Positions 9,539 to 32,596 of a DNA stretch of 64,000 nucleotides are shown here, one piece after another. Location of the stretch: the NCBI RefSeq assembly GCF_964355755.1, contig NC_092679.1:6448001-6512000 (forward strand). The letters run 5' to 3'. The notes beneath the pieces were generated by a model, which was not told the DNA's origin, did no database searches, and saw only the letters and a program-made list of their open reading frames with translations. A program made the translations under genes and the position numbers. This DNA comes from Antedon mediterranea (Eukaryota; Echinodermata; Crinoidea; Comatulida; Antedonidae). Numbering within the stretch: position 1 is the stretch's first letter; each line of letters begins with the position of its first letter.

Positions 9539-9611
9539 GTCAGTGTATAATAATTCATGTCTTCCAAGAGTTACGAACAACATGGCTGAACAGTTAGTAA
9601 CAAAGATGCCG
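9539..9611 (+). CDS. CCDC9: CCDC9-like exon with start codon
   Basis: Acceptor TTTTTTTTCCAG, donor CCG|GTAAGA. ATG at 9582 encodes [10 protein letters not shown] in phase 0. An upstream ATG at 9557 opens an 11-codon frame ending at the TGA 9587-9589, overlapping the main start in another frame. Confidence 0.75.
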
Positions 9612-12600: not shown

Positions 12601-15600
12601 GGTCCCTAATGATCAGCAATTGCTGAATGGATCACCTTCATTAAATATGGTAAAAATAAAAACAAACAAAAAACTTTCAGTTCATTCACATAATTTTAAT
12701 TTAATCTTAAATTATACTCTTGTTTTAGCTGGCTCAGCAATTAAACGATATGGTCAAGAATTTTACTCTACTGGACATCCTAAGCAAAGAAGAACAAGAA
12801 GACCTGTTGTCAAGTAAAATTGACCTTATCAGAAAACAAAATGAAGAACGCATAAAAAGACATCAGGTGATTATTATTAGTTCACAACATGTCTGCAAGA
12901 GTCTGGAATAAGAGTCTAAACTGAATCCTGATGCATTGTATTTGTACCACTGTAGTGCTAAAATATATAGAACATCTGGATTAAGAGTCTAAATCCAGAT
13001 GCATTGTGTGTGACTTGCTAGAAGAAATATGTAGAGAATTATTTGGCATCTTTCCAATAGTTCTAACATTAATTTTGAACACATATGTATTTTGAATGCA
13101 TAAACATGTGTGGGGATTAATCTAATCATGTGATAATTAAATACTGCCCCCTATAGGTGTTACTGCCCCCTATAATTGTAACAGTCTTTTTCAAATGATT
13201 TGCTTTCTTTTGTATTCATGAACCGGTCAAGGAAGCAGATAGTTTTGTCTCTTATTTAATTAAAGATCTGATTAAAAGGTAATTGCTCTACTTTATACAT
13301 ATATTACTTTGTTATACATTTATAAGATTCTGTTATGTTTAAGAAACATTAATGTTGTATTTTAAGATGATTGCATTCATAGGCCTAGACATTTGTTTTG
13401 GGTTAACCTTGACTCATGGAATGTGCAGTTAGGAAGCCTATTGAATAGTATTGTGTTACAATCTTTGAACTAGGATTTTATGCCATATAATGTTATAATA
13501 TATACTTTTGTGATAAACCTTCTTTGTATTAACAAAATATGTTTAGATAGATTTAGTAATGTTTAGTTTATAGAAGATAGTTTCTAGTTAACAGTTTGTA
13601 TAAAATAGTTCATCCTACAGTTCACACTTGATTAATTTGTACACACGAGGCTACCATGCTCGTGATAGATCGTCATGTAGTGCGCCCTCTATTTATCATA
13701 CAAAATGGCTGCGCCCATGGATTTGTTATTTATATATTTTACACAAACCTAAGATTATAACTCCTTGATTCAATGAATAGACTAAGTTTAGTATTCAAAT
13801 AGTGTGAGTAAATTCCAACATGCATTTGTTCTAGTAATATAATAGTAATATTCAGGCACTTATGATGCAATTGTGTAGGTAATTAATTAGGTATTTGTAT
13901 ACTCTAACAAAGTATACAGAGGCTGTTTAGGTAGACGTGCCGTTTGACGTAATAGTCGCAGTCCTCAGAGAGAATCCTTTTTATTAGAGTCGCCTGTTAA
14001 GTGAGGTCGTTACTAAGAATTGGCTTGTATTTTAGAATATTATTTACTTTTGTTTCTCATTGTATTTATTTTGTGGTTTTCAGGACCATACTGATCTCTA
14101 TTGTTATGCTAAAAACAAATTAAAACCAAATACACCACCGGACCGTGGTAAAAGTGAGAAAAGGCGTGTTTTTCCTTTTGTGTTGTCGTCCACATCCTTA
14201 CAATTTGGTGTCAGAAGTGGGATCGTGGATCGTATTTGGCTTTAACATTAGAGATCAGTGATGGCAAGCAAGGCATCGTTGCGAGATGTGCAGAGGACGG
14301 TTGATGAGCTAAGAGCCGAACTAGAAGCAACTAGGCGTGCTGCCCATGGTAATGGAAACACAGTATATGTTCTCCCAGAGAAGAAGATGAGACACTTTGT
14401 GGGAGCCGAAGGGGAATGTGTAGAGTCCTTTGTTGAAGACGATGGTACTGGGGACGTTTACCCTGACTGGCCTGATGATGCTGGCATTGACTCTGAAAAT
14501 GCTGAAAAGATTCTTCTTGTTGTGAATAATATTAAGTTTGAGGACAAACTCAGCTTAAACAGGGGAGTGTGGGGATTAATCTAATCATGTGATAATTAAA
14601 TACTGCCCCCTATAGGTGTTACTGCCCCCTATAATTGTAACAGTCTTTTTCAAATGATTTGCTTTCTTTTGTATTCATGAACCGGTCAAGGAAGCAGATA
14701 GTTTTGTCTCTTATTTAATTAAAGATCTGATTAAAAGGTAATTGCTCTACTTTATACATATATTACTTTGTTATACATTTATAAGATTCTGTTATGTTTA
14801 AGAAACATTAATGTTGTATTTTAAGATGATTGCATTCATAGGCCTAGACATTTGTTTTGGGTTAACCTTGACTCATGGAATGTGCAGTTAGGAAGCCTAT
14901 TGAATAGTATTGTGTTACAATCTTTGAACTAGGATTTTATGCCATATAATGTTATAATATATACTTTTGTGATAAACCTTCTTTGTATTAACAAAATATG
15001 TTTAGATAGATTTAGTAATGTTTAGTTTATAGAAGATAGTTTCTAGTTAACAGTTTGTATAAAATAGTTCATCCTACAGTTCACACTTGATTAATTTGTA
15101 CACACGAGGCTACCATGCTCGTGATAGATCGTCATGTAGTGCGCCCTCTATTTATCATACAAAATGGCTGCGCCCATGGATTTGTTATTTATATATTTTA
15201 CACAAACCTAAGATTATAACTCCTTGATTCAATGAATAGACTAAGTTTAGTATTCAAATAGTGTGAGTAAATTCCAACATGCATTTGTTCTAGTAATATA
15301 ATAGTAATATTCAGGCACTTATGATGCAATTGTGTAGGTAATTAATTAGGTATTTGTATACTCTAACAAAGTATACAGAGGCTGTTTAGGTAGACGTGCC
15401 GTTTGACGTAATAGTCGCAGTCCTCAGAGAGAATCCTTTTTATTAGAGTCGCCTGTTAAGTGAGGTCGTTACTAAGAATTGGCTTGTATTTTAGAATATT
15501 ATTTACTTTTGTTTCTCATTGTATTTATTTTGTGGTTTTCAGGACCATACTGATCTCTATTGTTATGCTAAAAACAAATTAAAACCAAATACACCACCGG

Positions 15601-18600
15601 ACCGTGGTAAAAGTGAGAAAAGGCGTGTTTTTCCTTTTGTGTTGTCGTCCACATCCTTACACATGTTTTAACTGAACTGGGTTATAGGCTGTATATTGAT
15701 GACTGCATTTGGGTTTTTTTGTTGCATATTTCAATAACAGATTCACATTATATTAAATATTTTAATGTTTCTTAATTCTGCAACAAAATTAAATTATACT
15801 TCAATACAAGATGATTTATTAGTTGATAAATTTTTATTTAGGAAATTGAAGAAGATCGATTAAGAGCAGCAGGAAGAGAAGGAGACATTAAACCACCGAA
15901 TAACCCAGATACTGATTCTAAAGCAATGTCGGCCAGTCCAACTTTTCAACAGGTATTTTAAATACTTTATATGATGCAGTATAATCCCACGGTTGAGAAA
16001 AATCCAACTCTCTAATTTTTTTTTTACAGAAAATGGCCAAAATATTGAATTTTAAAATATACATTGATTTAACATGCGCAGAACAAATTATTTGCGTCTT
16101 CGCATGCCGAATAATGGTAGTATCTACCTATGTCAAAAAATAAAAGGGTAAAAATGAGCACATTTTTTGAAAAAATACCTCTACATGGAATATATACAGG
16201 AAAAATCCCTATACATCCCTTTTATTTTTGACATAAATGGTTACTATAGCATAATAAACATGCGCAGAGTCGAATAATGGGTTCTGCGCATGTCATATGC
16301 TTTTCGAAAAATAGCCAATTTAGACGCTCCATTTCTTCCTGTAATGTGATATGAACCATGACCTAGAAATGGGTAGGCAAGCAATAACCCTCTACCATCA
16401 TACATGGAGTACATTATTATGCAAATGCTGCACTACATGATTTTTACAGATTCCATATCCGCCGCAGGAGCGTACATCTCCTCATAGTGCTCGTTCTCAA
16501 CCACCGCAAAATAGCAGCCGTTCTCCCCAAGATACTAGATCTCCCCCTGGGGCGCAACAACAGAGTGAGAAGTACATATGTATACAACTACGCAACGAAG
16601 GTAGTGGTCTCGGGTTTGGACTAGTTGGAAAGAAAGGAATCGGCGTAGTTGTTAAAACTATTGTTCCTGGTGGAGCTGCTGCTAAGGTAAGTGACTGTCT
16701 AAGTGACTTTATACAAATAATGCACAAATCACAGTGCGTTAGTGGAGATGCGGCCCACTTGAGGGAATTTACAATGGTGCAACATGAACGACATTGTGAA
16801 TACCCAAGAGTGCGCCGTATCTCCACTAACGCACAAACACGAAAGCCTACCAAAACAGTTGTGTACCAGATATGACAAGATATACATTTTTTATTTAATG
16901 GAGCCGCGGTGCAGACTAACGGTTCATAAATCTTGCATCCAGCATCTAGAGTAATCGGTAATCTGCCATTCGATTTACGCATGCTTTTTTGCTGCGCATT
17001 TTTTGCACTCCAGTGCATGATAGTGACAAAATAAAGAGTGCACACATGCCTCATTTCGACACTTCTGCTTGGCTACATCCTTGAACCCATTTTATAATTT
17101 GGTATATAACATTTTACATTTCATAAGTTGCACAATCAAAGTTTATAACAGTTTTGCAAACCTTTAAAATATATCATTTGATAAAATAAACATATAATAA
17201 ATTATTAATTTTAAAAATATTCAAAGTTCTGTAACCTGAAAAAAGTGTTTGCTGCCATCACTTGGTGAACATCTACTGATAAATAGAATTTGAATCGTAC
17301 ATCGATCTTAAAGTTGTATTTAAAATTTATAAACTTTAATATTATTAGTATCTGTACTTAAATATTTTTATTAAATACAACTTGAAATATTTAGAAAAAA
17401 AATAAATAAAAAAATGTTGTTGAGTTACTTGCCAATTACAGGATATTTATTTAATAATTTATTGTCTCATTTGAGGCTTAGGGAGTGGAGTTGAAAGAGT
17501 CGTGAGTTACAACCCTGACACTAGTTCAGGATTGAACCCCTGACCTGGGAATTTGAAGGCAAGCCTGTTAACCACCAAGCTACAACTCCAATATGTGTTG
17601 TTGTAGTGTACACTACTACATTTAAAAAGTAATATTTAACAATGGGAAATGTATTTAAATTTTGTAAACTTTCAAACACAGGATGGTCGCCTTCAACCTG
17701 GAGACATGATGGTATACATAAATGACACATGTGTGAGAGGTTTCACAAGAGACCAGATTGTTGATCTACTTATAAACTTACAAAAACAAAGCAAAGAGCT
17801 TACATTAAAAGTTACACGGGTAAGTCACGACACTTTACATATGGTACCCATTTAAATAAACGCATTTATGTCTCACTTATGCTTGGTTCCCACTAGCGAC
17901 GCAACACAAGGACGTAACGCAACGCAAGTGAATTGACCAATCACAAGCGATGGCTTATTCGCTTGTGATTGCTAACTGTCTATAACTTTTTTTTTTTAGA
18001 ACATTTTTGTTGAATAATCAAACTTTATGTGACAACAAAAATTGTATGGACATGATGAAGCCATATCACAACTATATTTGGGCATATCATTACCATATTT
18101 GGGCACATCACAGTTTTGTTGTCAAACTAGTTTGATAGTGTAGACAGAGCTTTATAAAAGGCGATACCTGACGATAATACATTCCTATGTTTAAAAATAA
18201 AGCATTTATCATTATTGCTGTATACAGTAGATGGTATGATTTATCTTGTGGTCAGAACAGCTGTACTAATTCTTAGGGTTTAGAATTCTTGTGTTATGAT
18301 CACCTTGGTTGGATCAATCTTTGTACTTAGTTGAGAAATACTTAAATGTATGTCTTCTTCAATCCTGATTTATGAAAAGAAAGAAAATATGTAAACATTT
18401 TTGCTTAGGTTATTGTTTTACTGACTTTCACTGTATAAACAAATTTCGTTGAACTGCGCATACCTGATTTTACCAGGTAATGGAAAAACAATGGTTTAAC
18501 CGTATTAGCCAATATAGTACCCTCTATATTTTTCAATAAACTTGAAGAAATTTGTAATTCGTTAAAACTATTTTGTTTTAAATTACAGTTTTTCAGGTAA

Positions 18601-21600
18601 ATAATTTGTTTTTTTTATCCAATTTTTGGTAAAAGTGAATAACTATTATGTGACATTAAAATGGCATATTCAACAAATAAAAATGTTTTTTAGTTATTTT
18701 TTCAGGGTACAATATATCTTTAAGCAAAGTCATTGACATTTTGAAATAAAGTAGATTTTTTTTTTCAATGCATGTCCAATCTAACTGCAGGTGTTTATAA
18801 ATTAATGAATTATTATACAGGTATTTAGTTTTTCATTTATATTTTTATTTGCACAGGGTCCGCAACAACAATCAATAGGAAATCTCACAAGTCCGCCAAG
18901 TTCAGCACTCAGACTTCACAATGCTGGACGAAATGCATATGGCCCAACCACCGATAGGAAAATGGTAAGTACTTCTAACTATGAATATATTCTCTATTAA
19001 AGAGTATTAAGCTCTGTCTACACTATCAAACTAGTTTGACAAGAAAGTGTGATATGCACAAATATGGTAGTGATATCCCCAAATATAGTAGTGATATGAT
19101 ATCATCGTGTCCATATATGGGCACATCACATTTTTTTGTCACATAAAGTTTGATAGTAGACAGACCTTTAGTCTGTTAAAAATAATCCTTTGACTGAAAC
19201 AATGTTTTCTGAAAATTTCAGAATGAATTATTATTAAGTATCTCTGACAAATTTCAAGAGAGCTGGTGGCAGTTATTAATATGATTTATATTACTTTTTT
19301 TGTGTGTTTTTTCATACTCATCCAACAGCGAGCAACTCCCCAATGACTTTTTTTTCCACTCATTACCATAAATTGATTTTTTTGTCAAACATGTCCACAG
19401 ACCACCGACATGCAGCACTTACTTACAATGTATATTGATTTTGTTGTTATGGTAAACAACAAAAATATCATTTTTGTTATAATTGTTGGTAGCATTCACA
19501 TCTTCATTTTATATAATTTATGCTTTTTAATATCCGATCCCAACCAAGAAGAAGTAGGTTTAATATCAGGCTCACATTCAACTACATCATTTTCCATTCA
19601 TCAAGGCAGGAAATAATATTTCACATAGAAATACTATTCAGGGGTAATACAGTGAAATTGTTACATACATTAAGAAAAGTGAGTGTTATCATATACAGTA
19701 CTATCTGATGTTTTTCACAGAGCAAGGCTAGCAGCTTTAAAAATTCATGCCGAGCCACGAAAAGAAAAGTTGCTAATGCTGTACAAGCAAGCTCTTTAAT
19801 TGGAGCTTGACAGGCAGGGGTGAAAGACCCTTTTATCAGAGGTCGTAAAGGGATTATTCTTTTATAAACACACCTTCCTTGCCATTTGATAGATTAATTT
19901 CAAATGTCGCATACTATACATTGTTTTCTCCCATTATAACGATTAGAGATATTATTTGATATTGGTTAATAGTGTGCGCCATCTACAACTGCTGTAATCC
20001 ACTGTCTGTTAAAATATGAGAGCTGCTTTTTTGAATGGCCAGCCTTTGATATTGATAGAAGCAACAGACTATAGTTAGATAAAGTTTATATTACAACAGT
20101 AGGTGTGTTATAAAACAAATAATGAATGAATTTTGCATTCTATTTAATTTGGCACTCTCATGTTTTTGTAATGTTTCTCTTGATGATCAGGAGTTTACGG
20201 TTGTTAATGACCTTTACATAAAAGAGGACAGGTTTTCAAGACGCAGGGTATCTGAAGATGTTAGTGGAAAGGTAGCGTAGAAAAAAAAGCATAAACACTA
20301 AATAAATATATATTTCCTATAGTTTAATTACTGTATATACAGTACTGTACACTATTAAGAGAAAATTCTATATACTAATAGGTGGTAAGGTGAACTTATT
20401 TAAAGATGTATTGTCCCCAAAAAACATGAAAAATGAAGATTAATGAAATCAGACTTTGAATATGTTATTTTGTAGTTTTATTAAACTTTCGTAGAAAAAA
20501 ATACGGAAACAAATAATGTTTTCACTTAACAAATGACAAAATAAATTGTTAAACCCAACCAAAAACCCATGGGCTGGCAGCCAATTTGACTATTTTTTTG
20601 CTTTAAATTCCAGTTTTTTAGGTAAATACATTTTTTTAAAATCCAATTTTTTGTCAAAGTGGATAGTTTTATTAGGTGACATTAAAATGGCATATTTCAA
20701 AATATTTTACAAATTATTTTTTCAAGGGGACAATACATCTTTGATTATTTTGGGTATTACTGCAAATAGTTATATTTAAAGCTTTGTTATATACAGTCCT
20801 CTTAAATAACGAAATAATAATGGATCACGTTTACTTAACATTTTACACCTCATAAGATTGAGTGCTGACTTTAATGGATCTGTTCCCTGGAGATACTAAT
20901 TGTTCTAACTTATTATTACTCTTATTAATAAATATTATTGTGGATTGAAATTTAGAATAGTTACCAAACAAATATCATACCCAATATCTTCAATTATGAT
21001 GTTTTTACTCTTTTTGTTCTGTTGTTTTAATTTTAACGTACAAAAGGATATCATAGTAACTTTAGAAAACTCTGAAAGTGGTCACATGACCCGTGTTACT
21101 GAAATTAAAGAACATAAGGTAGGGTTTTAATTCCATATATGGTGTATATGCATTTTTGTGATTTACACTAAATTGACTAATTTTTTTAATTTTTCAAATA
21201 AGTGGTAGTAAAATAAAAATAAAAATAACACTCTTATTAGGCGACACTTTCTTGCAACATGAATACAGTATATATTTTTGTTTAAATGGCCACATAAGGG
21301 ACATTTTTTCACCCAAAATGTGTTCCTTAATAGTGGTACATGGATACCATGCCTGATGTTTAAATCAACATTTAAAATACAGTATATAGCCTTTTTGTTT
21401 TTTCCATAAACCTTTCTGCTGTTGAATTTTAGGCCTAATACTTTAGTTTATTGTGTGCCTCCCTTATTGTCGGCATTGCTTAATAATGATATCAAATTTT
21501 AAAATTAGTTTGTGCATGCATTGTACAGTATTTAAACCTTAGTTTCTCATTATTTATTCATTATTTACATATTCTGAACAAGCTGGGCAAATCTGAAACT

Positions 21601-24600
21601 GTGATACATACTTCTGTTTAATGAATATCAAACAGTGAGAGCATGTTGTGGCTTCAATTGTTACATTTATCAAAATCCCCCCCCCCCCCCCTAAAATATG
21701 TTATACTGTCAAAACTTAACATAGTTGATTGCTATGGCGATCAGCTATACTTATTCATCTACAGTACACTCATTTATATATTGTGATGTTTTAAAGATAG
21801 TGTGTTTATACTGTATATTAATTACTAGATTTTATTATTATTATGCCAGTAACATTCAAATTCATTGTAGACATTTTTTGTGTGTGAACGCAACCTTATT
21901 AGATACTTACTGTAGTTTGTTCAACTAATATTTGGGTTTCATTTTTATATCATAGATAAATTTATTGTGTATCTTTGTAATGCAGATGGAAAATTATTTT
22001 TGATTATTAATTGAAGATGTTTTCTGCTTGTCAACTGGTACCAGAAAAACTTTTGGCAGTGTAAACTAGCCATACATTGTCATGTTAATTACTACTAATA
22101 ATACAGTTAAACTTAAATGTACCTTGAAGAATAATTTTAAATATTGATTAATTAAATTCACAATTTAGAACAGATTTTTTACTTATTAATTCAAGATATT
22201 GTTAATACATTTTTGTTCCACAAATCCTTTCTTCAAACTCGCTCTTTGACCTACTATTTCAGACTCTGAATGTGGAGGTGGATTTTGAGGGTGTGCAGCA
22301 AAGGCTAACGGGCCATCATCGTGGGCCAGTTGACCAACGAGTCCCTGGTAACCCAGCTCAAAATCCTCGGGTAAACGGTTGGAGTTACAACAGCGTTCTA
22401 AGTTATTATCAAAATGTATACAATACCTGCTTTTTAGCCTCTGCATTCAGAATATACTGTAGATCATTAGTTTAATAACCGCATCTTCTTCTTTTTGTTT
22501 CTTTATTTTTCATATTATTACCAAAAATAGCAGTGCATTGTTTTGATTGGTGTATTTAATACTGAAATTGCATGTTGCATTTTGAGGTTACAGTAAAAGT
22601 AATATGTTATTTATGGACAACTTTAAAAACTAACAAGTCGATCGATAAATAAAATGTGTTTCTGTGCATCTTAATTGCATATTATGAGAGTTTGTATAAA
22701 TCTGGTATTAAAATCCTGGAACTCTGCTCTTGTTTGAGTTTAAGCCCATCTGTACTGGAATTAAGCCCATCTATTCCATCTCACCGACGTTCCTCTGAAA
22801 AATTAATTGCCGTCTGTTCCATGTTTCTGAACTAAGACTTACTGAGACAAACTTATTGTTTCCTTCCTTCCTGTCTTTGGAACTAACTTCCACTTTTCTA
22901 AAAAATATTCACCCACAAATTAATTTTGGCGGAATATTAATGTTTTATTATTATTATAATTATCTCCAAATACGTAATTTTATGCAAAATTGTTTATGTC
23001 TGATTATACCAAGATGGATGTTGTTTACTTCCCTCAAACAAATTAGTTTACCTCCATTATAAAAATCCTGCTGATGCCTATCAAAGTACTGTAGATGATA
23101 GACTATGCATTTTTCCTTATTCTGAATTCTTCATCCTCTCCAAAAGTTGTCCCTGTCAATGATGTTATGGATTTGATTGACAAGATTGTGATGTTTGTTG
23201 TTGTTTGGAATGAATGTGCAACTTTATCTTTATTTCCTATGGAATAATGCACTGCTGTTTATTGTATAAAGCTCTGTCTACACCATCAAAACAGTGTGAT
23301 GTGCCCAAATATGGTAGTGATGTGCCCAAATATGGCAGTAATATGACATCATCATGTCCATATAAGGGCACATCACATTTTGTTGTCACATAAAGTTTAA
23401 TAGTGTAGACAGAGCTTTATTATAGACTCAAACATAACATCATGATACCATGTGTCTCCTCTTGTCTACGTACCTCTCAAAACGTGGTCATTATTCCATT
23501 TAATTGATTTCATAAATAATTATACGTTAATCTTAAAACGTTTAATGCGCAAAGCCTCTAAGCATTTCATATTATTATCCCAGTAATGTTTTATACCGAA
23601 CACATCTGGAAACATACTACCATAATGTTGCAGAAGTAAACAGCGCAGTTGTGTTTGGACCTATACCAGGTGCCCATTTGTACACCTGGGTGGAGAGAGG
23701 CAAATGTCGGTGTCTTTCCAATGCGACAAACTTTAGATTCAAATTCTCACGATCAGTAGTCCAATGTCCGACACACATTTAAATTTCATGATTACTGTAG
23801 TTTCAAATCAGATATACTGACAAAAAAAAACGCTGAAATGATAATATTATGAGCATTGTAATTATATTACAATTTACATACATCAGTTCATATGCTGTAA
23901 TTAAAATTTGGTTTGAAGTTAAAATTGTTGGCCGCATTTTTAACAAGAGGTAAGAGATTCACTGGTATCATTATGTCATGTTTAGAACTCTATAACCTTA
24001 ATATATATACATGCATATGCATTAGTTAACATAATCATTTTTTTCAGTTAATTTTTATTTGAAAAACTAACAGTATTTGGTTGCAGGCTGAGTGGATGCA
24101 TCGCATGCCATCAGAATAATTCAGAATATTAAATTCATCCTCACTCTTTTTAATAATTTATTATCTATATACCTAATTAAATTCTAACAGCATATTTTTA
24201 TTTCAGGCCCTATATATTATATTTCATTACATATATTAAGCATTATTATGTTTTTGATCTGAACATTTGTTTTTATTATAATATACACATTTTTTGATAT
24301 AATATTATTATTATTAGTTTTTTTTTACTGCTGTATATAAAAATACTAAACAAAAAAAATGGTGGTGGAGGTAAACAAACTAAGTATTGTATAACAAAGG
24401 GACATAATGAACATTTTTTTGAAATAAATACTTTATTTCATACTAATTTTGGTGATATTTAATTAAAATATTAAATATTATAAATTTAAAATATTATAAA
24501 GCCTAATAACATTGTTTATGTATATTAATTTACTTTTATCATTTAACCTAAGCTAATGTACAAATTATGTACTAAGTTTTACTTTAAATGTGAATGTCCT

Positions 24601-27600
24601 CTAGTTTACAGTAGTACATGAAAAACAAGTTTATAAATATTTTACACCTGTATGCAATGTATTTATACACCTGTATGCAATGTGTCAATTATGCAAATTA
24701 GCTACTAAGTCATTGCACACAATATAATACTATAGATATTAAAATCTCAAAATAGATGTTATGTTTGTTATAAATCTATTACCATATCTATTATAAATAT
24801 TTCAAACATTTATTATATTTAATATATTACAATATTTTTTTATTTATTTTTTTTTTTATTTTGGTAATTAGAATCCATAACAAAAACAAAATAATCTAAT
24901 CTAACGAATCTAATTAATAAATTTATTTCTATTGTGGTTGTATTATTAATAAAAATAATCTTACTATTATAATAATAATGAATAGATAAAAATAAAAAGA
25001 TCTAAATATGAAATATATATGAATAAAAGGTTCAATTTAAATTCATATATATGAATAAAAGGTTCAATTTCAATTCATGGCGACAATACTGTAATTAAAA
25101 TTTTTCACTTTATAAATAAATGTTCAACTTTCAAAACACACGATAGCATGAAATACAAAGATTAACCAAACAATGACATGTTTGCATTACACCAATATAA
25201 GCTAATTATTCTATCACCGTGATGTTTATATTGAAGATCCACTTTAAAAAAAAAAATTAAGTTTTTACAGAAAACACATTCTCAAGGTTCCAATTTAAGC
25301 TTAAATATAGCTGTAGAATTTAATAAAAAATGAAAATTGTTGTTAAAGAAAAATATTAAAATATACAATAATTGATAATGTTTTATGTTAAAGTTTCACC
25401 TTTTCTTTGAATTCTGACTTTAGGAAGAATGGTCAGAGAAAAGAAGACAGAATATAGACCGTGTAGAAGCAGAGATTCTAGCAATGAGAGAACAGTATGA
25501 AAACCAGGTACAACACATGTGGAGCTTTAAATGGCATATTACGGCCTCAATGACACTGGCATTTCATAGCCAATCAGCTAATTATGATAATATAATTTGT
25601 TCATCTTTTACTTTTACATAAACTGATATTGTATTGAATTTTAGTCCTTAGTAAAGGTCAATTATTATAACCAATCCATTTTTTAATTTATGTATGTAAG
25701 TTTGGATAAAGAACATTTCACATTTTCACAGAAACAACAAGGTGCTGTTACGTCGCCCCCGCCCCATTACAGTCGCACCAATTTCTTGGATGATCCGTCA
25801 AGAGACGAGGACGATCTTTCTAAAAGAAGTCCTAAACAACACGACAGTTCACAAAAACAGTACGGGAGTAGACGAACCCAGCATAGCTATGGAGGCACTG
25901 ACTTTGAAGACGCTGCGACGCTAGTGGCTAGGCAGAAAGCACACCAAAGGCAACAGGTTTGTTGATTATTTCTTTACTCGGTTTATTGATTGTCTTTATG
26001 TGTTCAAATAATACCTGACTTGCACATAAAAAAATCATGTGGAACAAAAATTTAACATATTCAATTAGGTATAAATGCCCCTTCTCCCAAATTATGAACA
26101 TATCTTAAATGTACAGTATTGTCCCCCTGAAAAAATAATTCTTAACAATTATTTTTTTTACATGCCATTTTAATGTCACCTAATAGTTATCCACTTTTAT
26201 CAAAAATTGAATGGGAAAAAAAATGTATTTACCTAAAAAACTGTAATTTAAAGCAAAAAAATTGGCTGCCAGCCAATGGGTTTTTGGTAGAATTTAACCA
26301 TTTATTTTGTCATTTTATAAGTGAAAACATTAATTTTTCCTTTTCTTTTCTATGGCAGTAATTAAATTTATTAAAACTACAAAATAATATATTCAAAGTT
26401 TTATTAATCTTTATTTTTCATGTTTTTGGGGGACAATACATCTTATGTATAATTCCATAGTAGTTGCGTTGAGTAAGGGTTGATGTACCTTTTAAATGAA
26501 TGTGTGTTATCATGTACTTACTAATGTGATAACCTTTGACGTACTTGTCTGACAACTGTTTCATAATGAAGCTTTTAACATTGTTTGTATGTCATGTGCT
26601 TGGGAACCTTGATAAACTTTTGAAGTTTGAGGTAGTGGTATACATCCAATTTAGTTTGGCAATTTGACAACATTTTAGTGGAACTTGCATCCAGTGAAGA
26701 CCATTCTGTTCACACGCACATAGCACATTTAATCTTTTTTTTTAGTGTAGGCTTGTGTTAATAGTCTTAATCTTAATCTTAAGTCCTAGAGAGAACATTA
26801 AACATTCATCTTTTTCCCATTTGAATCTACATTAACAATCTTAATAACCCACTTTAACATTTTCCTACTTTCTTTCACGGAAACTATCCCATACCCCTCT
26901 GTTTTGTTGTTGTTAATAGCTTCCTTCCTTCTAAAACTAAAAAATTATTGGTGACCCGTGTGATTGTCAAAGATCATCATCTTTTTTTTTTCGTTTTCTG
27001 TAATTTTTGTGTCTCGCATATCTCTAAAACATAACATAAAACACTTTTACATTTCTTAAGCTCTGTCTACACTATCAAACTAGTTTGACAAAAGTGTTAT
27101 GTGCCCAAATATGGTAGTGATATGACATCATCATGTCTATATATGGGTGCATCACATTTTGTTGTCAGTTTAAAAGTGTATACAGAGCTTTAGATTATTG
27201 TAGTCATTTAATCTAAACCGCACTATTAAATTAATAATCTTGTAATAATTAAATTGAAATTATTATTTTTTAGGCACAAAATAGTACAGAAATAAGCATG
27301 ACAGGAAAAGAAAGGAAGAGATATGAAAACTGGAAAAAAGAAAGGGACGAAATCGACGAGCAGCGTATGGCACGCCACAAGAGTTCATCAGGTGAATGGA
27401 AAAGAGAATGGGACAAAGCAAAGACTGGAAATTGGTTAGTGTATTTACTTCATGTAACACCCTTTTCACACTACATTAAAATGAGCCTACTACTGTAAGA
27501 TTTCACAGATGACTGTTAAATATCAGATTTTTCAAAACAATATGTAACTATATAAATCTGGTGTACAAGTTCTTGCTTTTTCAAAATTAGTGGCAGTGTG

Positions 27601-30600
27601 AAAGGGGTGTTATTATAATTTTAAAATTCAGTCACAGGAATTAGAGCCTATTCACACTTCCAAGTGAAATTGGCTTATTCTGTGAACCATTAATACTTAT
27701 CTTGTGCAATTCTTTTTTTAAATCAGAATATTAACAGAACATACATTTTTTTACAATGTTATTTTTTAAAATTAATAGTCAAAACGATCGGAAAGCAAAA
27801 CCCACAAAAGGTAAAATGTTGTACTTGTTTTTTTTCACAAGCTTGCTTATTGCTCTGCAGCTCACATAGAATTACCTACCAGCATATTCTAACAGCTAGT
27901 GTTACGGTTTGTTCTCTTAAATGTATCTGTAACATAGAAATTCATATGGAAAAATACCACCAGATAAAAACCCTATTATGAAATGGATTGTTCCATATTT
28001 TTGCGATTTAAAAAAGAAAAACATCCATGACAATGAGGTAAATTTGTATATCTTATTCATTTGACGACCTTTAACTGTATTAATATCAAAACGAAGAGAC
28101 TAACTTTTTCTCACATGAATATTAAATTCCTGGGTGAGGCTTGATAAGCTAATTGTAAGTGGAGACTTCATAATCAGTTTTAAACACCATCTGCAAGAGT
28201 GGTCTGAACTCATTTAACTCCAGGTAGCCTTTTTACATTTCTCTGATAAGAATTGTGAAAGCGTAATGTCACAGAAAAATATCTATATTGTCTTGTCTTG
28301 TATGCCAAACAAATCGTAACACTATTGCTGTTTATATTGCGCACAATATGCTGACTGCCATGTAAAACATACTCTTGCATACTTATTTATTTTTGCATTC
28401 CAAATTATAATTTTGTGCTGTGCTGTGCTTGTATTGTATTGTTTTTGTACATTTATTTATTATTGTGAATTACAGTTGTAAAGTGGTGGTGGTAGTTTAA
28501 TTTGAAATCTTAAAAATAATCCTTAGAAAAGGATCAACACTTAATGCCCTGTTGACAAATTTTGGTTTGCACTGTTCCTTATTCAATGTGTGCCGTTTAA
28601 TGCCACGTATTGTCATGCATATATTACAAATTGTACACGCTATGTGTGAACACTACGACCCGCATTGTTATGTACACTAGTTCATGTTGTATGCGTTGGA
28701 AACCTATAAGCATATTATTTAGCATAAAGTATGCACATTCATTGTGTGCAAAATATACCGTGAACTAGTCATGAATTACATGCAATTTGCCCCACGCTAG
28801 CACGTACTTGCAGCGTCCACGCATATTATCCACAAATTTGAAATTCAGGCACAATTTTCAACAGGTTTAATTTTTGCATACATTGTCCTTCACCTCCCGC
28901 AACTTTCTACAAGTTGCCATGCATTATTTTTGCATTGCCACTCATTTAATGATAGTAGTAGTAGTAGTGCAGGACCAAAATTTGTCAACAAGGCTTAAAG
29001 GCCAATTTACACAGACGAAGACGTTATTGGGCAACTTAGTCCCTCTAAAACCAGGCCTGTCATAGGCTACTGCTCTAGGCCTAATGACAGTCAGTCATAA
29101 TGTCTAGTCCAGGACATCAGTGCCTGCGCATGCACTAGCCTCGAGGCCTACAAGCCATACTTTCCGACCACACCTCTCGCGAATTCTGCGCGCTGTGTAA
29201 ATGGGACAAGCCACATGGTTTTCCTCTTACCATTACCGCTTACCACTCGTCTGTGTAAATTGGCTTTAACTCGGTACATTATGTACTGACCATAGTATAC
29301 ATTCAACTCTCTCAATATTGCCTGATAAAATTGCAAACTCTTAAGAAAATGTTGATATGGGAAACCAAACATGTTGGGCTAGCCCAAAGGTGTCTGGAAA
29401 AGTTAGTAATAGTATTAGTAGTATTTGGTTGTTTTGTATTACTTGTGGTGGTGGTTATTAGCAATAGTAGAGTGTGGGTAGTGTTTAGTATCTATATATA
29501 AATTATGGTTAATTCTGACATAGGCGAGCACAATGCAAAAACTTTGGTACAAATCTCCGCCTTGGATACCTACCTTATCTATCTGAGATGTACCGCGAAA
29601 CGTAGATTTGATAACATTAGTGTTCACATCGACGCTATTGTTCCATATTTCTATCTTAGGAAGATATTATAAAGAGTTTTTTAACAAAATTTATGATTTC
29701 AACATTAGATTTTCATCTCAATTTCAATTCTTCCCGGTCAAAGTAATTTCCGGGTTTAAGATAAGTTCACCTTGCAACAACCTGGTTTCAAATATTTTCT
29801 ATCTTTTATACACAAGGGAGCAGTTAAAATAATAGATTTGACCCTAAAGGTGACTGGAAACAGGCACTTTCCATCAATCAATACAGTGTCCCTTTGGAAG
29901 ACGAAAAAAAAAATCGGATAGTAGGACTGGAGCTTAAGGGTATGTTCAGACTCACGGAGTTACGGTGGAGTTATGTAAACGGCGTACATATTTTTGTGTC
30001 TGAACCATGCCGCGGATTAGCGTTAGGAAGCTGTTACTCCGCGCCAGTGGCGTTAATAACTCTAGCGGGAGAGGGTAGATTTCATAACGCTAATCCAGTG
30101 ATGCATCAGTGATTTTAACCTTAACCAATGAAAATACACGACCACGATTAGCAGACAGCAGCTACATACCCGTACCCTATGATACGACAGCTAAATAGCT
30201 ATGTCAAATGTATTTTCAGGTTCAGATTTTAAAGAACAGTAAAGTTGGCGTCAGTAATATGATATTTTCATATATTAAATCAATTAATCAGATAATTGTC
30301 CATGTAACAATTACGTTTTAAATTATTTTGAATTAAAATGAAATTCTACAAGTAGTAAGAACAAATCAGTATATTTGAAGGTAAACATTATATAAATAAA
30401 AATGAAAAAAACAATGTAAACTTTCATGCATTGTCATGAATGTATACATATAGTTCTATCTGCTTCGACCTGATCAGAGTGTTTTAAACGCAAGGCATTG
30501 GAATGTTGATCGTTGTGTCTGGAACACCTTGGCTTTTAATGCCACGGATTACCGTACGCCTTGCGTAGATAACTCCACCGTAACTCCGTGAGTCTGAACA

Positions 30601-32596
30601 TACACTAAGTTGGCCATTGGTCATAGCCATTTCAGTGTTTTGTTTATTTTAAAACATACCGCGCGTGTGTGAAGGTACAGTAGTTAAATAATAGAAATTA
30701 TACTGCAAATTAATAAAGATCAAATTAAATATACGCCATAAAGAATCAGAATATATTGTGGGGAATAGTATTATAAAATTACAAAGGGAGATTTGATGAT
30801 AAGACATTTTTCGAGTGAAATCCCGATAGCTGAGTTTTATTGAGTAAGCTTGCAGGAATAACTGTAGGCTATCTTCCTGTGGATCGAGATGTCTGCCCAT
30901 GTTGTAAGGCGTAATGTCTTCTTTCTTGGGCCCACTCTGTCACGGCAGTTAGTTTCAAAAGATGATTAAATTAAATAATGTATTAATAATTATTAGGATG
31001 GTATTCATTTGAATAAACGCCTCTCCAATAAAACATCACTTTGAATAACCCCCCCCCCCCCAACCCAACTATCTAATAAACTTCCATCCACATATTTATA
31101 ATAACACAATTATACTATTTGTAGTAGAATTCACCGCATTGTTATCTACAATTTACCAAGCATTTGTTATTCTTTTTTACCACTTTTCATATCTATTAGA
31201 GGATTTCATTTGATTATAAATGTTACCATATTATTAAAACTAAAAATGTTAACATATATCCCTCGAATAAGCACCTCCCTCAAATGACCTCCGCCTCCCC
31301 AAAGGGCCCTACCCCGCCTCCCCAAAGGGCCCTACCAAACAATAAAAACTATACTTTAAAATGTTATTAATCATCTAAAACACTGTGAAACAAAGTAGTT
31401 TAGTTTTACGAATGTCAAGCATTTTCAATAATGGTAACCGACAGAAAACGTATAAGGAGAACATTATCATTCCGAGAACCATTGTCTACACTTCCTCTAG
31501 TATTAATAATTTTTTCAATATTCATGAAGAATCATTGTATTTTTAGAAAGTTTAAAAAGCATTTACAAAACAAATACAGTACAACTAAAAATGTCATCTA
31601 CAAGAAGCAAAGCAGTGGAGTAACGGCTAGGAGCGCTCGCTGGCTAACCCAGGCCCGTAGAGAAAAAAGGGCATTCAATGTTGGAGGGCCACTTAGGGTC
31701 ATAAACCAGGGGCCTCAGACCTCTGCATTACACCACTGCTTACAAACAATATCCAAATATAAATCACCATTTCATTCATTCCTCTTCGAAGGATTTCATT
31801 TCAATTTATAATGTAGGCCTTTTGCCCTTGTATTGTGACCAAATGATCTAGTAATATTTAGATTGTGTTTTAAAAAATAGTCCTTTATTGTAACTCTATT
31901 AACATCCACTACAGCTCAAAGATCTCAGTATGCTTAATACTGTACTATATTGCATGGTTGCAGTGTGTCTATTGCTAGTTTATTCTAATTACACAGTTAT
32001 GCGCATGAGCAGCATGTTTGAGTTATTTTCTACTTCCTTCTAATTTTCGAAAAATATAATTGACAGGGCGATTTGTTAATACTGGCAATGAGAAGGAAGA
32101 GGCTTCCCTGTGCTGGGGTCGAGGACGAGGTCGTGGTCGAGGTGTTAAGAATGAAATGAAATACTCCAAAATAGGGATTGCAAACAAACAGAAAATGGAG
32201 GAGGAAATTAGACAAGGGATTGTAGAAACAGACAGTTTGAATATACCACAAGCTAGCATTGATAGTACGCATGGGACAGGAAATGGCACTAGTAAGAGTG
32301 ATGATATATTGAAAGGAACTGATCATAAGACTGTGATATTCCAAGATGCTGAAGTAAGCTTAAAAGAATCTGAAAATGTCACAAAAGTAGCTGAAGAGAT
32401 ACCACCTCTTCAGGACATAGATGCTGAAATGAGTACTCCCAAACAGCCTAAAAGTGATTTACATATAAAAGTACCTCACCCTGAACAGGTTGATTCGATA
32501 ACATCACCGGATACTTTCAAGACACCTCCTGGTTTTAATCATGTAATTAATTGGGCTGAAGAAATGGAAAAATTTGATTCGGGCAATGAACTTTGA
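9582..32596 (+). CDS. CCDC9: CCDC9-like protein containing a PDZ domain, 14 coding exons
   Basis: Joining 9582-9611, 12729-12866, 15842-15952, 16450-16686, 17682-17819, 18857-18964, 20191-20271, 21047-21118, 22263-22370, 25424-25507, 25732-25956, 27274-27434, 27779-27810 and 32067-32596 gives 2055 nt, 684 aa, with no frame break. CCDC9 landmarks: an N-terminal coiled coil ending RHQEIEEDR (about residues 20-100), [51 protein letters not shown], an RGRGRGRG run, and the C-terminal NWAEEME. Between the coiled coil and EEWSEKRRQ lies a PDZ domain (about 135-218) with GLGF at 146-149 and GRLQPGD. Human CCDC9, as I know it, lacks a PDZ. CCDC9 proteins are RNA-associated and linked to the exon-junction complex; the PDZ could add a membrane or scaffold partner (inference). 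Exons 7-9 are symmetric and may be optional. The start is the ATG in the first good exon. Confidence 0.87.
11292..11476. repeat. Near-perfect palindrome, about 85-90 bp arms
   Basis: The left arm runs from 'aaacaaataatgaatg' through TGGTACAAATAATGGCAC to AAAGGTTATATTTCAAC. The right arm is its reverse complement. The centre is near 11393, with only a few bases of loop. A half-copy of the outer arm is seen at about 20105-20160. It is probably a very compact foldback transposon. Confidence 0.85.
12206..12322 (+). mobile_element. MITE family A copy (decayed)
   Basis: Termini CTCTGTCTACACTCTCAAAC and TTTGATAGTGTGGACAGA. Interior has 'cactaccgtatttgggca' words. Confidence 0.75.
12424..12560 (+). 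mobile_element. tRNA-derived SINE
   Basis: Begins with an A-box-like TGGCTTAGTGGTC and has a B-box-like GGGTTCAAGTCCC about 35 bp later, then a non-tRNA tail. A related copy lies on the opposite strand at about 17465-17596. It does not fold as a functional tRNA by eye. Confidence 0.6.
12729..12866 (+). CDS. CCDC9: CCDC9-like exon: N-terminal coiled coil
   Basis: 46 codons, phase 0 to 0. Encodes [20 protein letters not shown] and ends RIKRHQ. It resembles the CCDC9 start, where IRRYQ is followed by EIEEDR. Acceptor TTGTTTTAG, donor CAG|GTGATT. Confidence 0.88.
13105..13108. other. Target site duplication, left copy (CATG)
   Basis: CATG directly before the 5' LTR; the same four bases follow the 3' LTR at 15662-15665. 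Confidence 0.75.
13109..14202 (+). repeat. 5' LTR
   Basis: 1094 bp, starts TGTGGGGATT, ends ACATCCTTACA. Same length and same bases by eye as 14568-15661. Confidence 0.94.
14206..14225 (+). promoter_or_regulatory. Retrotransposon primer-binding site
   Basis: TGGTGTCAGAAGTGGGATCG lies 4 bp after the 5' LTR. It begins with TGG, complementary to a tRNA CCA end, and matches the type of site used by several marine Gypsy elements (probably tRNA-Leu; inference). Confidence 0.8.
14261..14584 (+). pseudogene. Truncated gag-like open frame of the LTR element
   Basis: The ATG at 14261 opens about 107 codons. It has an N-terminal Glu/Arg-rich helix ([18 protein letters not shown]) followed by a segment with [10 protein letters not shown], reminiscent of Gypsy capsid N-termini. 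The frame runs into the 3' LTR and stops at 14584, so it is cut far short of a full gag. No zinc knuckle remains. Its identity as gag is inferred from position between PBS and purine tract. Confidence 0.6.
14557..14567 (+). promoter_or_regulatory. Polypurine tract before the 3' LTR
   Basis: AAACAGGGGAG ends directly at the first base of the 3' LTR, the usual place for plus-strand priming. Confidence 0.7.
14568..15661 (+). repeat. 3' LTR
   Basis: 1094-bp direct copy of 13109-14202; followed by the CATG duplication. Confidence 0.94.
15842..15952 (+). CDS. CCDC9: CCDC9-like exon: EIEEDR segment
   Basis: 37 codons, phase 0. [15 protein letters not shown] directly continues RHQ of the previous exon, as in human CCDC9 (YQEIEEDRKKAE). 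Donor CAG|GTATTT. Confidence 0.9.
16080..16270. repeat. Imperfect inverted repeat with ATGCGCAGA ends
   Basis: Left words ACATGCGCAGA and ATGTCAAAAAATAAAAGGG are answered by CCCTTTTATTTTTGACATA and a repeated ACATGCGCAGA. Likely a decayed inverted-repeat element. Confidence 0.4.
16450..16686 (+). CDS. CCDC9: CCDC9-like exon: Pro/Ser linker and first half of PDZ
   Basis: 79 codons, phase 0. A Pro/Gln/Ser linker (residues 94-133) precedes the PDZ start [20 protein letters not shown], with the GLGF carboxylate loop at 146-149. It ends at AAAK in the loop before helix A. Donor AAG|GTAAGT. Confidence 0.93.
16731..16835. repeat. Short inverted-repeat element
   Basis: GTGCGTTAGTGGAGATGCGGC and GCCGTATCTCCACTAACGCAC are inverted about 60 bp apart. 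Confidence 0.7.
17465..17596 (-). mobile_element. tRNA-derived SINE, reverse strand
   Basis: On the minus strand, TAGCTTGGTGGTTAACAGG (A-box-like) is followed by GGGGTTCAATCC (B-box-like). Ends with 'ggagttgtag' and 'ggagtggagttg' resemble the copy at 12424-12560. Confidence 0.55.
17682..17819 (+). CDS. CCDC9: CCDC9-like exon: second half of PDZ
   Basis: 46 codons, phase 0. [20 protein letters not shown] is a canonical PDZ segment. Helix B follows at [10 protein letters not shown], then the last strand LTLKVTR. The residue at the first helix-B position appears to be Arg195 rather than the His typical of class I domains. Donor CGG|GTAAGT. Confidence 0.94.
17881..17990. mobile_element. MITE family C copy (GCTTGGTTCCCACTAGCGAC), partial
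   Basis: Left terminus followed by GACGTAACGCAACGCAAGTG and CCAATCACAAGCGATGG with its inverted answer. The right terminus is lost. Confidence 0.75.
18015..18155 (+). mobile_element. MITE family A copy
   Basis: Interior 'catttgggca' words and right end TTTGATAGTGTAGACAGAGC. Left end truncated. Confidence 0.75.
18430..18728. mobile_element. MITE family D copy (GGGGACAAT type), decayed
   Basis: Shares 'tttaaattacagtttttcag', 'tgtgacattaaaatggcata' and the end 'gtacaatatatctttaa' with the copies near 20.4, 26.1 and 40.2 kb. Confidence 0.65.
18857..18964 (+). CDS. CCDC9: CCDC9-like exon: post-PDZ linker
   Basis: 36 codons, phase 0. Ser/Pro/Asn-rich, ends PTTDRKM. Joined directly to the exon at 25424 it reads [14 protein letters not shown], which parallels the continuous human CCDC9 segment DRKSKEWEERRRQN. 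The ancestral junction probably skips the three exons between. Donor ATG|GTAAGT. Confidence 0.82.
19009..19172 (+). mobile_element. MITE family A copy
   Basis: Left end AAGCTCTGTCTACACTATCA; right end TTTGATAGTAGACAGACC. Interior 'catatatgggcacatcaca'. Confidence 0.85.
20191..20271 (+). CDS. CCDC9: CCDC9-like candidate cassette exon (27 codons)
   Basis: Acceptor TTGATGATCAG, donor AAG|GTAGCG (weak). Symmetric phase 0; peptide includes the basic stretch FSRRRVSED, a possible phosphorylation site. No clear counterpart in human CCDC9, so inclusion is uncertain. Confidence 0.5.
20400..20748. mobile_element. MITE family D copy, full length
   Basis: About 345 bp between TAAAGATGTATTGTCCCC and the inverted GGGGACAATACATCTTT. 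Interior has 'tgacattaaaatggcatatt'. The 77-codon open frame inside is not a gene. Confidence 0.85.
21047..21118 (+). CDS. CCDC9: CCDC9-like candidate cassette exon (24 codons)
   Basis: Preceded by a T-rich tract and AAAAG; donor AAG|GTAGGG. Symmetric phase 0; encodes [20 protein letters not shown]. Support is only splice sites, open frame and matching phase. Confidence 0.45.
22263..22370 (+). CDS. CCDC9: CCDC9-like cassette exon (36 codons)
   Basis: Acceptor CTACTATTTCAG, donor CGG|GTAAAC. Phase 0 to 0. Encodes [20 protein letters not shown] and a Gly/Pro/Asn tail. Higher GC than its flanks supports coding. Confidence 0.65.
22371..25423. other. CCDC9: Long CCDC9-like intron
   Basis: Very AT-rich. 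Contains a MITE family A copy at 23268-23420 and a possible alternative last exon at 24087-24119. The stretch 24120-25420 is almost pure A/T with no recognisable element. Confidence 0.5.
23268..23420 (+). mobile_element. MITE family A copy
   Basis: Ends AAGCTCTGTCTACACCATCA and TAGTGTAGACAGAGCTTTA; interior 'gatgtgcccaaatatgg' twice. Confidence 0.85.
25424..25507 (+). CDS. CCDC9: CCDC9-like exon: [10 protein letters not shown] segment
   Basis: 28 codons, phase 0. [18 protein letters not shown] aligns with the human CCDC9 KEWEERRRQNIEKMNEEM helix. Donor CAG|GTACAA. Confidence 0.92.
25732..25956 (+). CDS. CCDC9: CCDC9-like exon: NFLDDP segment
   Basis: 75 codons, phase 0. Contains [14 protein letters not shown] (human: VRNFLDDPRR) and YGGTDFEDA (human: WGGPDFE), then a basic Gln-rich end. 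Donor CAG|GTTTGT. Confidence 0.93.
26113..26447. mobile_element. MITE family D copy, inverted orientation
   Basis: Runs from ATTGTCCCCCTGAAAAAATA through CCATTTTAATGTCACCTAAT to GGGGGACAATACATCTTA; reverse of the 20400 copy. Confidence 0.85.
27058..27192 (+). mobile_element. MITE family A copy
   Basis: Ends AAGCTCTGTCTACACTATCA and AAAAGTGTATACAGAGCTTT. Lies 80 bp before a coding exon. Confidence 0.85.
27274..27434 (+). CDS. CCDC9: CCDC9-like exon: SMTGKER / GEWKREWD segment
   Basis: 53 codons plus 2 bases. [20 protein letters not shown] and [14 protein letters not shown] align with human SMTGRERSEYLRWKQEREKI and TGQWRREWDAEKT. This is the best conserved CCDC9 block. Donor TTG|GTTAGT. Confidence 0.95.
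27779..27810 (+). CDS. CCDC9: CCDC9-like 32-bp micro-exon
   Basis: Inferred from phase. The previous exon ends with 2 spare bases and the last exon begins with 2 bases of a codon. Joining them directly gives a stop, whereas this exon (acceptor TTAATAG, donor AAAAG|GTAAAA) restores the frame as [12 protein letters not shown]. Short, but it solves the phase exactly. Confidence 0.7.
28997..29270. mobile_element. Inverted-repeat element, family E
   Basis: Termini GGCCAATTTACACAGACGAA and TCGTCTGTGTAAATTGGCTT are inverted. A second copy is at about 55793-55987. Confidence 0.75.
29938..30607. mobile_element. Inverted-repeat element, family F
   Basis: GTATGTTCAGACTCACGGAG and TACGGTGGAGTTAT at the left are exactly answered in reverse at the right (AACTCCACCGTAACTCCGTG, AGTCTGAACATAC). 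About 670 bp, no transposase. The open frame at 29894-30112 overlaps its left end and is not a gene. Confidence 0.85.
32067..32596 (+). CDS. CCDC9: CCDC9-like last coding exon
   Basis: Acceptor TTGACAG. Encodes [11 protein letters not shown], the Arg/Gly run [11 protein letters not shown], an acidic Ser/Thr/Lys-rich disordered tail, and a C-terminal [15 protein letters not shown]. The last motif matches the human CCDC9 DWGEEVE end. Stop TGA at 32594-32596. Confidence 0.93.

Follow-up and report, generated by a model that had tools for sequence, protein, structure and literature searches.

A predicted CCDC9-family gene of the crinoid Antedon mediterranea that very probably carries a PDZ domain upstream of its DUF4594 block

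The locus considered here, a stretch of 64,000 nucleotides of the genome of Antedon mediterranea (hereafter, the window), raises the question of whether two exons coding for a PDZ domain are part of a gene of the CCDC9 family and, if so, from where this domain has been derived. Human CCDC9 possesses a Pro/Gly/Arg-rich linker at the corresponding place and, to our knowledge, no PDZ domain. Unlike the human protein, the A. mediterranea protein predicted from the genomic sequence has a PDZ domain upstream of DUF4594; the gene, which is the sole DUF4594-containing member of the CCDC9 family found in this genome, would very probably encode it between the N-terminal part and the DUF4594 block.

The gene model was built from genomic DNA alone. 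Candidate exons were obtained by reading positions 8000-34500 and from the positions of the family motifs, and their borders were then refined. The predicted gene is located on the plus strand and comprises 14 coding exons, reaching from an ATG at position 9582 to a stop codon that ends at position 32596. Splicing of the 14 exons yields a single open frame of 684 residues, with NEL as the C-terminal residues and with GT-AG borders at 13/13 introns; introns 1-11 are in phase 0, intron 12 is in phase 2, and intron 13 is in phase 1. Least secure in the model are exon 1, together with the 5′ end, and exon 13 with its 32 bases. The coding exons are as follows.

9582..9611, plus strand: exon 1, coding part; donor gtaaga, phase 0; ATG picked for its in-phase connection with exon 2
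12729..12866, plus strand: exon 2; N-terminal part, putatively helical (spliced model and motif positions)
15842..15952, plus strand: exon 3; starts at EIEEDR (spliced model and motif positions)
16450..16686, plus strand: exon 4; Pro/Gln/Ser linker and first half of the PDZ domain with the GLGF loop, last residues PGGAAAK; both borders in phase 0 (Pfam)
17682..17819, plus strand: exon 5; second half of the PDZ domain, ends LKVTR; phase 0 on both sides (Pfam)
18857..18964, plus strand: exon 6; linker; held-out codon score +5.5
20191..20271, plus strand: exon 7; held-out codon score +4.9
21047..21118, plus strand: exon 8; held-out codon score +3.9
22263..22370, plus strand: exon 9; held-out codon score +8.3
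25424..25507, plus strand: exon 10; starts at EEWSEKRR (spliced model and motif positions)
25732..25956, plus strand: exon 11; NFLDDP and start of the DUF4594 match at residue 406 (Pfam)
27274..27434, plus strand: exon 12; core of the DUF4594 match, ends in phase 2 (Pfam and genome profile search)
27779..27810, plus strand: exon 13; 32 bases, least certain of all
32067..32596, plus strand: exon 14; GRGRGRGRG stretch and stop codon (spliced model and motif positions)

In the first-pass annotation, a PDZ domain had been proposed to lie between CCDC9 motifs, and the motifs named there are indeed found on both sides of it on the plus strand, with EIEEDR (starting at 15842) upstream and EEWSEKRR (25424), NFLDDP (25780), SMTGKER (27295), REWD (27403), and NWAEEME (32549) downstream. 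The blocks EIEEDR, EEW.E.RRQN, NFLDDP, SMTG.ER, and REWD, which we take to be the conserved blocks of the family, occur in this order on one frame. Among the Pfam models, DUF4594 (PF15266) matched residues 406-509 of the spliced protein (63 bits at a cut-off of 27, E 5.7e-17, profile positions 3-109 of 177), in likeness to the CCDC9 family including the human protein, and PDZ (PF00595) matched residues 141-216 (48 bits at a cut-off of 23.2, E 1.6e-12, profile positions 5-80 of 81); PDZ_6 matched the same stretch with 28.4 bits. Besides these three, no Pfam domain, L27 included, was detected in the spliced protein at E up to 1. The spliced frame and the Pfam matches bear out that exons 4 and 5 encode a complete PDZ domain in frame inside a DUF4594/CCDC9-family protein. 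Also the proposed extent of the PDZ exons, 16450-17819, was exact, since exon 4 begins at the former position and exon 5 ends at the latter, and the joins are in phase as claimed, with all borders of exons 3-10 in phase 0, GT-AG introns, and an unbroken frame of 684 amino acids. Both the GLGF loop, the carboxylate-binding element of PDZ domains, and the GD turn (QPGD) are kept. The DUF4594 region found no match among PDB sequences at E 0.1, and in NCBIfam the PDZ domain was hit by 13 families, all of them bacterial models and all far below their cut-offs.

The exons connecting the PDZ domain with exon 10 were held out from a codon scoring that was trained on exons 2-5 and 10-14. On the forward strand, the interval 17820-25423 contains 21 segments between AG and GT[AG] that are open over 24-45 codons. 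Ten of them score positive, namely, exons 6, 7, 8, and 9 and, for exons 7 and 9, variants overlapping with them; none of the remaining 11 scores higher than -5.5. In the reverse-strand control of the same interval, 5/25 segments are positive, the best of them with 5.0. Because of this value in the control, the score of a single short exon (5.5, 4.9, and 3.9 for exons 6-8) is not decisive, and the scoring supports exons 6-9 as a set, not each of them singly. The frame is kept upon skipping of any one of exons 2-11, so that splicing of exon 3 to exon 6 could give an isoform devoid of the PDZ domain.

A very young LTR element (13109-15661) resides in intron 2. Its two ends of 1094 bases (13109-14202 and 14568-15661) are identical at every base, enclose an interior of 365 bases, and are bordered on the outside by the same 4 bases; one internal open frame of the element had no Pfam match at E 0.001.

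The search for relatives covered the A. mediterranea assembly of 354 Mb, in which an absent match does not demonstrate absence. With the PF15266 profile, one place was found, namely, exon 12 of the CCDC9-family gene. The full spliced protein gave 16 matches, 12 of which are exons of the same gene; the remaining four, on C2 and C6, cover the PDZ domain (one also the linker preceding it) and no CCDC9 part. A second CCDC9 copy without PDZ domain was not found in this genome by either search. When the spliced PDZ exons 4 and 5 were used as DNA query, their sole match in the genome was themselves, and hence no retrocopy of them was found there; no relatives on viral contigs were confirmed with the exon 12 protein as query. 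By E-value, the other places nearest to the PDZ domain are C6:30700807, which is a PDZ domain near the 3′ end of the PATJ region considered, a PDZ domain on C2, presumably ZO-like, and the first half of PATJ PDZ2, where the match (69% over 35 residues) stops exactly at the end of exon 4. A PDZ domain clearly closer than PATJ PDZ2 was not found in the genome.

The PATJ/MPDZ-like gene concerned is located at C6:30698500-30752500 on the minus strand and begins with a stretch that, by eye, looks like L27. In comparison with single-domain chains of the PDB, its PDZ1 is best matched by human MPDZ PDZ1 (107 bits) and its PDZ2 by human PATJ PDZ2 (95 bits). Beside the PDZ2 exons, about 2500-3300 within C6:30745500-30752500, there is a long tandem array with a unit of ~12 bases that is open in several frames on both strands.

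Concerning the type of the PDZ domain, the best single-domain match in the PDB is PDZ2 of human PATJ/INADL (2dlu, 71.8 bits), the A. mediterranea counterpart of which is encoded at C6:30747861-30750456, minus strand; the multi-PDZ chain 2xkx reached 78.8 bits summed over three domains, and MAGI-2 PDZ1 reached 47.1 bits. Over the whole domain, 42/85 residues are identical to A. mediterranea PATJ PDZ2 and 40/84 to the human one, which between them share 50/84; nine sites are in common with the former only and seven with the latter only. The CCDC9 PDZ domain differs from PATJ PDZ2 in that the identity is limited to 48-49%, in having Arg at the alpha-B1 column, where PATJ PDZ2 has Ser, and in being three residues longer before the last strand. 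The half encoded by exon 4 is identical to PATJ PDZ2 at 24/40 (A. mediterranea) and 23/39 (human) positions, in contrast to 11/39 for A. mediterranea MAGI PDZ1 (C9:21147019-21148206, the two pieces of which reach 60-61% to human MAGI-1) and 14/39 and 11/38 for the human MAGI copies. The exon 5 half is close both to PATJ PDZ2 and to PDZ1 of MAGI-1/MAGI-2 (2i04, 2kpk, 1ueq); its best PDB match is MAGI-1 PDZ1 with 26.3 bits, followed by dishevelled (23.7), MPDZ (21.2), and PATJ PDZ2 (20.6), and its identities are 20/47 to A. mediterranea MAGI PDZ1, 17/46 to each human copy, and 18/45 to both the A. mediterranea and the human PATJ PDZ2.

In a tree of 13 PDZ sequences, the CCDC9 PDZ domain joins A. 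mediterranea and human PATJ PDZ2 with a UFBoot value of 96, outside their pair (pair support 43); upon addition of two more PDZ domains of the same genome, the grouping has a UFBoot value of 84 and the pair one of 80. This 13-sequence tree, which does not contain MAGI PDZ1, is unsafe when used alone, since the certainty was removed by the addition of MAGI PDZ1 (A. mediterranea, human 1 and 2), with AU values of 0.31 for PATJ PDZ2 and 0.69 for MAGI PDZ1 as sister, which are not separable. Also the placements within the PATJ PDZ2 group are not separable by the AU test (outside the pair, 0.63; with the A. mediterranea copy, 0.50; with the human copy, 0.09). Trees of the halves place exon 4 with PATJ PDZ2 (UFBoot 88) and exon 5 with MAGI PDZ1 (UFBoot 91), both values being below 95. 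For the exon 4 half, the AU p value of MAGI is 0.037 under LG and 0.066 under WAG and, thus, is significant against MAGI under LG only; for the exon 5 half, that of PATJ is 0.175 (LG) and 0.081 (WAG). The sequence of exon 4 is similar to PATJ PDZ2 and that of exon 5 shows a weak leaning towards MAGI PDZ1, and the domain as a whole is most likely a divergent, old PDZ domain of PATJ-like type.

The intron within the PDZ domain lies between AAK and DGR in phase 0. For its comparison with PATJ PDZ2, the gene structure of A. mediterranea only was used. There, PATJ PDZ2 is interrupted at the same codon border and in the same phase, the outer borders of the exon pair appear to be in phase 0 by splice signals, and another PDZ domain of the same gene (C6:30709442 and 30705084) apparently has site and phase in common with the CCDC9 PDZ domain. 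In PATJ PDZ1, the intron is one base earlier; in MAGI PDZ1, it is not at the DGR site but interrupts the GD motif within its Gly codon, in phase 1. Apart from the CCDC9 PDZ exons, the genome contains 77 PDZ matches, 66 of which span the intron site by their listed profile positions, although such a span is no proof of the lack of an intron, given that PATJ PDZ2 itself (C6:30747867-30748043) spans the site through a stop in its intron. One of the other 11 is the partner in the PATJ pair, C6:30704962-30705084, apparently with the same site and phase. The remaining ten and three matches starting at profile position 35 make up 13 further places that were inspected; a phase-0 acceptor at precisely this site is present in none of them, 3/13 have the intron a single base earlier, 1/13 has a phase-0 intron about one codon later, and in the rest the introns lie elsewhere. 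The exon structure points to PATJ PDZ2, though introns close to the site are not rare in the PDZ domains of this genome. In the first-pass annotation, exon shuffling had been favored on the grounds that the two PDZ exons are flanked by introns of phase 0. The flanks are as described; the argument drawn from them is weak, because 11/13 introns of the gene (introns 1-11) are in phase 0, and because exon 4 does not code for the domain alone, 38 residues of Pro/Gln/Ser-rich linker preceding the PDZ part. A common origin by way of exons is argued for more strongly by the intron within the domain.

Taken together, these comparisons suggest that the PDZ domain is an old insertion in, or an ancestral part of, the CCDC9-family gene, related to PATJ/MPDZ PDZ2 and MAGI PDZ1. 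Recent copying is unlikely, because the domain is as distant from its relatives in the same genome as from the human ones; a recent copy from A. mediterranea PATJ, in particular, was rejected for want of any excess similarity to that copy.

It appears somewhat probable that CCDC9 already had the PDZ domain in an early ancestor, bilaterian or deuterostome, and that the domain disappeared in the line leading to human CCDC9. This is consistent with the balanced identities and exclusive sites, with the failure to find a clearly closer PDZ domain in the genome, and with the best trees, in which the CCDC9 PDZ domain stands outside the pair formed by A. mediterranea and human PATJ PDZ2. However, this outside placement is not significant, a faster change after a move would give the same picture, and the fusion need not be as old as the domain. 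Gain in the lineage of A. mediterranea, with a PATJ/MPDZ-like gene as the donor of an inserted exon pair, is possible, though on the doubtful side. It would explain the match of intron site and phase to PATJ PDZ2, the exon pair of which is apparently bounded by phase 0 and, therefore, could move without frameshift, as well as the lack of a phase-0 acceptor exactly at the site in the 13 further places; also the AU preference of the exon 4 half for PATJ PDZ2 over MAGI PDZ1 argues for it. On the other hand, there is no excess similarity to PATJ PDZ2 of the same genome, the tree of the exon 5 half favors MAGI PDZ1, the gene is mostly in phase 0 anyway, and introns near the site are not rare. An improbable proposal is that of a hybrid domain, in which exon 4 of PATJ PDZ2 type and exon 5 of MAGI PDZ1 type would be joined at the intron within the fold; through this domain, altered in its peptide preference, CCDC9 would link exon-junction mRNPs to proteins of the membrane or of cell polarity. 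The odds of this proposal are lowered because the exon 5 identity favors MAGI for the A. mediterranea copy only, not for the human copies, and because the A. mediterranea MAGI intron is situated elsewhere. Finally, that the PDZ exons make up a gene of their own within an intron of CCDC9 is highly improbable, since, although an in-frame ATG in exon 3 of the spliced model could serve a transcript beginning there, exon 4 has no in-frame ATG ahead of the PDZ domain, so that a free-standing gene would require another 5′ exon, and since the coding track carries on in phase from exon 5 through exons 6-9 to exon 10, with the phase-0 borders and GT-AG introns of exons 3-10 described above.

With the PDZ domain taken as a part of the CCDC9-family protein, its ligand preference may be considered. 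Class I PDZ domains have His at alpha-B1. In the alignment, the CCDC9 PDZ domain has Arg in the column of the His of PSD-95 PDZ3, which we take to be the alpha-B1 position, and this suggests a peptide preference other than class I; class and partner are here read from one residue, and a possible preference for an acidic residue at position -2 is a guess. Since the GLGF loop and the GD turn are kept and Arg stands where PSD-95 PDZ3 has His, we infer that the protein may be an mRNA-bound (mRNP) adaptor for C-terminal peptides outside class I. Unlike the PATJ/MPDZ scaffold with L27 and many PDZ domains, it shows, by Pfam, one PDZ domain and no L27.

In one study (PMC8111494), human CCDC9, termed uncharacterised there, was reported to elute together with the exon junction complex and to shift upon treatment with RNase A. 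The RNA-linked role proposed for the A. mediterranea protein is carried over from the human one. By this analogy, the protein would be retained on mRNA or exon-junction particles by its DUF4594 block together with the C-terminal stretch rich in Gly and Arg. The groove of the PDZ domain, with its GLGF loop intact, would grip the C-terminal tail of a partner protein, and the bound tail would tether the particle to that partner.

The PDZ domain could, thus, let an RNA-linked protein dock on the tails of other proteins, and a CCDC9 of an animal that bears it points to a class of partners, namely C-terminal PDZ ligands, that is not suggested by work on the human protein. If the domain is ancestral, docking may still be a task of human CCDC9, carried out in a different form by its linker. 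The question of loss or gain becomes testable by a survey of orthologues. A literature search retrieved no paper on DUF4594, on CCDC9 (full name) together with the PDZ domain, or on CCDC9 and sea urchin, which does not exclude a mention in print; PDZ and DUF4594 may also have been annotated together already by automatic pipelines of the protein databases.

Some further features were observed in the window. A sequence of 32 bases is present in five copies on both strands with at most one mismatch (4424-4455, 18121-18152, 19009-19040, 27058-27089, and 39915-39946), compared with a mean of 0.00 expected from 100 shuffles; by eye, this dispersed repeat end resembles the terminus of a small inverted-repeat transposon. 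The open frame at 2126-2509 had no Pfam match at E 0.001 and, by eye, resembles steroid 5-alpha-reductase, which is our assumption. Downstream of the gene, at 39403-41555, separate open frames encode parts of a nuclear receptor, namely, a zf-C4 DNA-binding domain (91.3 bits) and a hormone-receptor ligand-binding domain (37.2 bits), as matched by Pfam.
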